A program made the position numbers and the translations under genes. The notes beneath the pieces are model-generated. The model did no database searches, was not told where the DNA came from, and saw only the letters and a list, made by a program, of their open reading frames with translations. A stretch of 64,000 nt of DNA from Bacillota bacterium (GTDB lineage Bacteria > Bacillota > Limnochordia > Darwinibacteriales > JAAYFS01): NCBI GenBank assembly GCA_012728115.1, contig JAAYFS010000062.1:1-64000 (forward strand), in the 5' to 3' direction. Below, in pieces: positions 17,499 through 28,016 of the stretch (position 1 is the first letter of the stretch; each line of letters starts with the position of its first letter).

Positions 17499-17576
17499 TG
17501 GTCGGGGCGACAAGATTCGAACTTGCGACCTCTACCACCCCAAGGTAGCGCGCTAGCCAAACTGCGCCACGCCCCG
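17499..17576 (-). tRNA. tRNA-Pro (anticodon GGG)
   Basis: Minus strand CGGGGCG...CGCCCCG-A-CCA acceptor stem; anticodon arm CTACC-TTGGGGT-GGTAG; T arm with GTTCGAATC; CCA encoded. Confidence 0.95.
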
Positions 17577-17631: not shown

Positions 17632-19113
17632 TTAAAGAATGATGCAAATCAGCCCGCCGCTACCCTCATTAATTATTTTAGTTAATGTCTCTTGCAATTT
17701 TTCTTGAGCGTTATCTGGCATTCTTGTAAGTTTACTTGTAATACCATCTCTCACCATATCTTGAAGGGATTTTCCGAGAAAATCACGATTCCAAAGTGAA
17801 TCTGGATCTTGTTCAAACTCTTCGGTTAAAGATTCAACTAACTCGGTTCCTTGCTTTTCGGTACCTACTAAAGGTGTCACTTCGGTCATGATGTTTGCTC
17901 GTACTAGGTGGATTGAAGGAGCACTAGCGGTTAGTTTGATTCCGAAATTGCGACCCTGTTTTATTAGCTCGGGATGTTCAAAGGTAATATCTTCCAAGTC
18001 TGGCATTACAATGCCATATCCTGTTTCTCTTACTTGCTGCAATGCTGAAGCGATTTTGTCATATTCCTTTTTTGCTAATGCTAAATCATGCATTAGTCCC
18101 ATCAGATGATGTTCGCCTTCGACAACGATTCCCGTTAGCTCAGACAAAATCAGATAGAAAAGGGCCTTTGATGCACCCAATTCGATTACAGCGACTCCTG
18201 TTCCCATTTCAATATTCGCCAATGTTACAGACTCAATCGGTTCATAACTAGTCAAATTCTGAACGGTGGTTTCAATATCTCTTAACCGTTCTACCTTAGT
18301 GACACTCTCGAAAACTGCCTCTTCATAAGCTACTCTCAGCCAATGATCTGGACGCAATTCTTCAACCCATTTTGGTAAGCGAATGTGTATCTCTCTAACT
18401 GGGAACTCAAAGAGGATCTCTTGGAGTAGGTCGGTAATATTCTCCTGGGTCATCCTCAAACTATCGAGAGGAACAACTGTAACACCTTACCTTTCTTCTA
18501 GCTCATTAGCTAAAGCTTGGGTTTCCCTACTTTCCGGGTGCATGGAGTTAAGTACTACTAGAAACGGTTTTTCCAATTCTTTCAGTTCTGTAATAACACG
18601 TTCTTCAGCTTCAAGATAATCATCTCGAGGAATATCAGAGATCGATCCGTCGGTTATGATCACTAATCCAATGGTAGAATGCTCTGCGATCACTTTACGA
18701 GTACCCAACTCAGCTGCTTCCTGGAAGGGAATTTGATGCTCGTACCATGGAGTCATCACCATTCTGGGCCCGTCTTCGTCCATGTATCCCTTAGCACCAG
18801 GGACTGTATAGCCAACACAATCTACTAGGCGCACCTTTGCTTTAGCATTTTCCTCAAAAACTATTTCAATTGGCTCATCAGGCACGAATTTGGGTTCGGT
18901 GGTCATTATTGTCTTGCCAGCCCCACTCTGGGGCAACTCATCTTTAGTTCTCTCCTTGACGTATGGGTCTTTAATATTTGGCATCACCAATAAATCCATA
19001 AAACGCTTAATGAATGTGGATTTACCAGTTCGCACGGGTCCAACAACACCGACGTATACGCTACCTCCAGTGCGTTCAGCTATATCATTAAGAATATTAA
19101 AATTTTCCATCAA
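17632..19113 (-). pseudogene. spoIVA: stage IV sporulation protein A gene, full length but interrupted by one in-frame TAA at 18487-18489
   Basis: N half (18487-19113: IAERTGGSVYVGVVGPVRTGKSTFIKRFM...MTTEPKFVPDEP) and C half (17632-18459: ...INEGSGGLICIIL) align ungapped with recalled B. subtilis SpoIVA; the stop is in the same frame at the Tyr of SEKYDIPV. Confidence 0.9.
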
Positions 19114-19256
19114 GGCTTCCCTCCTTTGAATTGGGTTTCCCGTCCGGCTGATTCGTGCCTATAATGATGCAGCCTGGAAATCATGAAGGCTTTACATGCT
19201 AATGGACATTATAACTATATTAGCTCTCGATGGAAAATATAACAAAAAAAAGAAAG

Positions 19257-25879: not shown

Positions 25880-27961
25880 TTATCTATGGTTCTTAAATAG
25901 ATCGCCGAACACATCACCGAGGTTTGTAGTTAGTTCTTCGTCTTTAATTTCTTCAACTTCTTTAGGTTGACGTTGTTTTGGTGCTTTGACAGGTTCAGGT
26001 TTTGGTTGAAGTTCCTTGATACTTAATCCAATGCGTTTAGCATCTGAATCTAAGCTAATCACCTTTACTTCAACTTCATCGTCAGATTGGACAACCTCTT
26101 CAACCTTTTCGATATGACGATGAGCCAATTGACTAATATGGATCAATCCCTCAACGCCATCTTCTATCTTCACGAAAGCACCAAAGTCAGTTGTCCTGGT
26201 CACTGTTCCAGTTACCACATCTCCAACACTATACTTTGATTCGATGTTATCCCATGGATCAGCAATCGTTTGCTTTAATCCTAAAGAGATTCGGTCATTC
26301 TCAGAATCTAAGCCTAGGATCATAACCTTAATCTCATCATCTTCTGAAACAATGGCTGAAGGATGGGAAACTCTACTATAAGCCATTTCAGAAACATGTA
26401 ATAGCCCTTCTACTCCATCACCGATATCGACAAAAGCACCAAAGTCGGTGATTCTGCGGACCACGCCAGGAACTATATCGCCCTCTTTAAGGCTTGCATA
26501 TACTTCTTTTTTCTTTTGCTCAAGTCTTTCTTCTAAAACAGCTCTATGTGAAAAGACAACATTATTCTTCTTGCGGTCTAGCTCGATGATTTTTAACTCT
26601 AAGTTTTGGCCAACATACTTCTCTAAATCTTCCTCAAAACTTAAGGAAACTTGGCTAGCAGGAATAAATCCTCTAACACCAACGTAGACCAACAATCCGC
26701 CTTTAACGGTCTTTACCACTTTCGCTTCCATAGTGGAACCGTTTTGGAAGATTTCTTCCAATTTGCCCCAAGCTAGTTCAGCATCGGCTCTTCTTTTTGA
26801 AAGAATAACGTTACCTTCAGAATCGTCGATCTTTAAAACTTTCACGCGAATTTCATCTCCTACGCTCAAAACATCTTCAGGAGTGATCTCGGGACTGAAA
26901 CTAACTTCGTTAAAGGGCAATCGTCCTTCACTCTTGTATTGAATATCTACTAAGACTTCCCCTTCACCGATTTGGACCACAGTGCCATTAATGATATCTC
27001 CTACTTGAAGATTAGGCACAACATCAAAATCTTGCATTTGACCTTCTGCATCTTGTGTTTGTTCAACTTCCACGTTCTCATCTTTCACTTCTTCTGCTGT
27101 CTTTTCTAGCTCTTTTTCTTCTGCCAATTTACTCATCTCGTTAAGTACCCCCTCAATTAACCAACTTGGAGTTGATGCCCCAGCACTTACTCCTGCTTTT
27201 TTAACTCCGCGAAACCATTCAGCTCTAAGTTCATCGGCGGTTTCGATTAAATATGTTTTGGCACCAACTTCTTGACAAACTTCCGCTAACCTCCTAGTGT
27301 TAGCACTGTTTCGACCTCCAATTATGACCATTACATCCACATTGGCTGCTACTTGCCGTGCAGAGAATTGTCGCTGTTCAGTTGCGGTGCATATAGTGTT
27401 AAAAGCCTTTAGTACATCAGCCTTTCCAGCTAAGGCACTTACACACTCTTGGAAATTGGAGATCGATTGAGTAGTTTGTGCTATTACACCGATGCGCTTG
27501 GTCAGTGGAAGCTTATCAATGGCTTGAGGTGAGTCTATGACCCATGCGATCTCGCCTGTAGCTCCATGAATAGCTTTCACTTCGGGATGTGCACTATCTC
27601 CCACAATAACAATCTGATACCCTTCTTCTTTCAGCTGACTTGCAAAACGCATCGCCCGCTTTACAAAGGGACATGTTGCATCAACTACCGTTACACCTTC
27701 TTTCGCCGATAGTTGATCCATCACCTTTGGCGGAATTCCGTGACAACGAACAATAACAACTCCTGCATCTATATCCTCAGGTCGTTCTTCAACAGTTACC
27801 CCTCTGCTTTCTAATTCCTTAACTACCTGAGGATTATGGATAAGTGGACCTAATGTCTTAATCGGAGCACCAGAATTGCTTTCGGCGGATTTTAATGCAG
27901 TTTCTACTGCTCTTTTAACGCCAAAACAAAATCCTGCTGCCTCCGCTAATATTATTTCCAC
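25880..27961 (-). CDS. ispH: 4-hydroxy-3-methylbut-2-enyl diphosphate reductase / 30S ribosomal protein S1 fusion
   Basis: IspH domain (AGFCFGVKRAV, VDATCPFV, GGRNSANTRRL) plus four S1-like repeats; GTG 27961 preceded by GGGAGGGGG. Confidence 0.95.
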   Translation of the reverse strand: MEIILAEAAGFCFGVKRAVETALKSAESNSGAPIKTLGPLIHNPQVVKELESRGVTVEERPEDIDAGVVIVRCHGIPPKVMDQLSAKEGVTVVDATCPFVKRAMRFASQLKEEGYQIVIVGDSAHPEVKAIHGATGEIAWVIDSPQAIDKLPLTKRIGVIAQTTQSISNFQECVSALAGKADVLKAFNTICTATEQRQFSARQVAANVDVMVIIGGRNSANTRRLAEVCQEVGAKTYLIETADELRAEWFRGVKKAGVSAGASTPSWLIEGVLNEMSKLAEEKELEKTAEEVKDENVEVEQTQDAEGQMQDFDVVPNLQVGDIINGTVVQIGEGEVLVDIQYKSEGRLPFNEVSFSPEITPEDVLSVGDEIRVKVLKIDDSEGNVILSKRRADAELAWGKLEEIFQNGSTMEAKVVKTVKGGLLVYVGVRGFIPASQVSLSFEEDLEKYVGQNLELKIIELDRKKNNVVFSHRAVLEERLEQKKKEVYASLKEGDIVPGVVRRITDFGAFVDIGDGVEGLLHVSEMAYSRVSHPSAIVSEDDEIKVMILGLDSENDRISLGLKQTIADPWDNIESKYSVGDVVTGTVTRTTDFGAFVKIEDGVEGLIHISQLAHRHIEKVEEVVQSDDEVEVKVISLDSDAKRIGLSIKELQPKPEPVKAPKQRQPKEVEEIKDEELTTNLGDVFGDLFKNHR

Positions 27962-28016
27962 CTTACCCCCTCCCATTATGTTTTCAAAAAATGTAATGCA
28001 CCTCAATGTTACTTCT

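Follow-up and report, generated by a model that had tools for sequence, protein, structure and literature searches.

A single in-frame TAA in spoIVA of an uncultured Limnochordia-like bacterium is probably either an error in the draft consensus or a nonsense mutation of very recent origin

The minus strand of a 64,000-nucleotide stretch (the window) from the draft genome of an uncultured Limnochordia-like bacterium (66 contigs, 1.95 Mb; 1,945,817 bases) carries two ORFs, 18487-19113 (208 amino acids from a TTG) and 17632-18459 (275 amino acids from a TTG), which an earlier note had taken for the two halves of SpoIVA (stage IV sporulation protein A), separated by a single in-frame TAA with no frameshift. 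Indeed, both ORFs are in one frame, the TAA at 18487-18489 is their sole separator, and translation across it reads ...ANELEER*GVTVVPLDSLRM... with no further internal stop. The preferred start is the ATG at 19110, which directly follows the TTG and stands behind the strong Shine-Dalgarno sequence AAAGGAGGG (Shine-Dalgarno region AAAGGAGGGAAGCC, 19114-19130 on the minus strand; -13.2 kcal/mol for the duplex with the 16S tail). Counted from this ATG, spoIVA covers 17632-19110 on the minus strand, comprising 492 codons when the internal stop is disregarded, followed by a terminal TAA at 17632-17634; the read-through product has 492 amino acids, and the stop is codon 208. Directly downstream lies a tRNA-Pro (GGG) at 17499-17576 on the minus strand, the sole tRNA in the window. 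Elsewhere in the window, a single minus-strand ORF at 25880-28006 fuses an IspH-like protein to several S1 RNA-binding repeats, an arrangement known in clostridia.

The assignment of both ORFs to SpoIVA was borne out by Pfam. The N part (18490-19110, 207 amino acids) matched positions 1-206 of 237 of SpoIVA_ATPase and the C part (17632-18486, 284 codons) matched both SpoIVA_middle and SpoIVA_C in full, so that the three domains follow each other in order across the stop (E = 1e-105, 8e-67, and 3e-32). In the read-through alignment we found the Walker A motif GPVRTGKST, the Walker B motif RLVDCVG, an altered G4 motif (LNSMH), and LDS at the G5 place; the roles of these motifs were mapped in PMC7952092. 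The gene resembles spoIVA of endospore-forming Firmicutes such as Bacillus subtilis and Clostridioides difficile in its three Pfam domains in the same order within 492 amino acids, its conserved Walker A motif, its NS/T variant of G4, and its conserved C-terminal region, but differs from it in that its reading frame is interrupted between G4 and G5 by a single in-frame TAA, codon 208. Such a pair of gene halves cannot have arisen by chance. SpoIVA is encoded once in this genome, by the copy with the internal TAA; a second, intact copy was looked for, and no other match was present in the genome. When the window was inspected by eye, no other gene broken in the same fashion was seen, and the remaining same-frame ORF pairs were adjacent genes or antisense frames.

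SpoIVA was surveyed in 101 genomes: this one and those of relatives that share its order, class, or phylum. SpoIVA was present in 91, and an internal stop was found only in the copy described here; in relative G022 the gene is in two pieces on two contigs, again without an internal stop. The earlier note had proposed looking for the same TAA in relatives, and none has it: spoIVA is uninterrupted in about 90 relatives from these three ranks, and the TAA was absent from all other full matches, including all 55 that were aligned. The aligned sequences, which are 52 to 77% identical to this SpoIVA, encode Tyr at the stop position in 48 of 55 cases, as the note had said of this site, and His or Phe in the others (four and three, respectively). 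The codon is mostly TAT or TAC, and a single base change is therefore enough for TAA; the closest relatives all have TAT, one base away. Identity is highest, at 70 to 77%, with sequences from draft genomes that carry the label Limnochordia or Bacillota. A tblastn search of the ORFs against one relative, G017, for stops and frameshifts returned mostly antisense ORFs, with spoIVA as the informative case.

If the C part had been left untranslated for long, it should have decayed. Both parts are well preserved, as had been noted before: near-invariant sites were changed in 0 of 72 positions of the N part and 0 of 35 of the C part. Against nine close relatives, the C part had diverged 1.26 to 1.76 times as much as the N part, which falls inside the range of 1.14 to 2.34 between pairs of intact relatives. 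The stop is therefore either of very recent origin or absent from the organism itself.

Single in-frame stops also interrupt other well-preserved genes of the genome. Scanning the genome for coding stretches that pair up in one frame yielded 70 candidates, which were sorted by reading and Pfam and were mostly adjacent genes. Besides spoIVA, the scan gave yebC (C61:32249), with TGA at an Arg/Lys codon; the gene was present in 29 of 30 relatives, none of which has the stop, and the place is occupied by Arg in eight and Lys in one of nine compared loci. In four further genes a domain spans the stop: a moeA copy (C26:52567, TAG; MoCF_biosynth), a BTAD regulator (C42:4729, TAA), an AddA-type nuclease (C46:11533, TGA; PDDEXK_1), and a nucleotidyltransferase (C66:2933, TAG). 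Weaker cases are feoB (C30:2334, TAG) and genes with one in-frame stop each for a VWA protein (C63:50810), a DUF4097 protein (C7:11588), and an ABC-2 permease (C8:5551). The moeA match is absent from most relatives of the same order, which leaves no codon for comparison, and this copy may be a true pseudogene. It adjoins an uninterrupted MoeA-like frame at C26:50752-51843.

Since TAA, TAG, and TGA all occur in unrelated genes, the simplest account is a common, non-specific source of single-base changes. A base changed at random in a long ORF creates a stop in 4.4% of cases; with this share, about ten stop-broken genes fit an estimated 200 or so substitutions scattered over 1.93 Mb, a rate close to 1 in 10,000 bases. 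As a control, 262 kb of relative G017 contained no evident interrupted gene, a sample too small to prove an excess in the genome studied here. Real genomes also hold some nonsense pseudogenes. A mutator lineage was considered as the source of the stops and set aside; MutS is present with an open frame.

From the stop itself, the fact that no relative shares it, the absence of decay, and the similar stops elsewhere in the genome, we infer that the TAA in spoIVA is very probably a scattered single-base event, either a consensus error of the draft or a nonsense mutation that arose very recently in the sampled population. The two are nearly balanced, with the consensus error perhaps slightly the likelier. 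The gene would thus be an otherwise ordinary full-length spoIVA with a single-base nonsense change at a Tyr codon. Single-base nonsense changes and consensus errors in draft genomes look like this: a lone stop, without decay, in a gene that all relatives have intact, and several comparable cases within one draft genome, among which all three stop codons occur. Assembly error and recent nonsense mutation had indeed been among the options offered in the earlier note and are favoured by the evidence, whereas the other two, stop read-through and a functional split, are contradicted by it.

One could also suppose that the lineage no longer sporulates and that spoIVA is an older pseudogene in decay. 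The stop does sit in a gene essential for sporulation and the genome is small (1.95 Mb), but the near-invariant sites are unchanged and divergence is not relaxed in either part of the gene. Furthermore, SASP genes and the genes for SpoIVB and SipL, the clostridial partner of SpoIVA (PMC6436350), are present with open frames, and a general loss of the sporulation programme is not indicated. An older pseudogene is thus already contradicted, and we regard it as very improbable.

A functional split would yield separate N and C proteins, which either come together again as SpoIVA or act independently. In its favour, both parts are intact, and an in-frame TTG and ATG do follow soon after the stop. 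However, the place of the break does not suit a split of the ATPase from its C-terminal domains. In an AlphaFold2 model of read-through SpoIVA (mean pLDDT of 78; about 91 to 96 around the break), helix 195-208 ends with residue 208, and strand 212-215 and helix 222-233 come next. The motif map of PMC7952092 places G4 at NSMH (188-191) and G5 after strand 7. With the break after helix 195-208 and G5 behind strand 7, the N part is predicted to be a P-loop (TRAFAC-type) ATPase that lacks the last core strand, the G5 motif, and the last helix, and the C part would begin with the end of the ATPase fold, ahead of the middle and C-terminal domains. In the model, the stop is therefore inside the P-loop ATPase fold, ahead of the last core strand, and not at a domain border. 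No solved structures related to the C part were found. The first start codons of the C part, TTG 18459 and ATG 18453, for which the absence of a convincing ribosome-binding site had already been remarked, show hardly any Shine-Dalgarno pairing (-1.4 and -1.5 kcal/mol), compared with -13.2 kcal/mol at the spoIVA start and a median of -11.2 kcal/mol for long ORFs. Moreover, they are not new starts but the conserved Leu and Met codons (LRM) of the intact protein in near relatives, and no relative has a split spoIVA. With the break in mid-fold and no ribosome-binding site for the C part, a functional split was rejected as extremely unlikely.

Read-through or recoding, in which ribosomes would insert an amino acid at the TAA (18487-18489) and so produce SpoIVA in full length, needs nothing beyond the two conserved parts in one frame. 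TAA, however, terminates 534 of 1034 long ORFs and is therefore the main normal stop of this genome. None of the 47 tRNAs found by ARAGORN in 1,928,480 of 1,945,817 bases (99%) has a stop-reading anticodon; an Rfam search gave 51 tRNA-like places, so that about four lack ARAGORN typing. RNA structure just downstream of the stop did not exceed that of shuffled sequence (z = 0.78), the stop is conserved in no relative, and a TAA-specific device would not explain the TAG and TGA that break other genes. Selenocysteine and pyrrolysine use TGA and TAG, unlike the TAA in spoIVA. A literature search for spoIVA with read-through or a nonsense mutation gave nothing relevant. With no suppressor tRNA found, TAA as the main stop, and no downstream structure, recoding was rejected and is hardly credible here.

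The consequences differ for the two forms of a scattered single-base event. If the base is wrong, the organism would make a normal SpoIVA. If the stop is real, translation would end at residue 207 and yield a truncated ATPase without the end of the nucleotide-binding fold and without the SpoVM-binding C-terminal region, and the cell should fail at building the spore coat. C. difficile cannot form heat-resistant spores without SpoIVA (PMC6436350), and a real stop should therefore harm sporulation here as well. In either case, the cause of the stop is most likely ordinary, and not a new way of making the protein. An isolated in-frame stop in a conserved gene of a draft genome calls for caution: relatives and other stops in the same assembly should be compared before a split or recoding is proposed. 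It is very doubtful that a real stop is fixed in the species and that SpoIVA is still made, either because TAA is efficiently read through or because two fragments come together within the ATPase fold. A stop that was nevertheless real and tolerated would show that the ATPase of SpoIVA functions as two pieces or that read-through of TAA can occur during sporulation.
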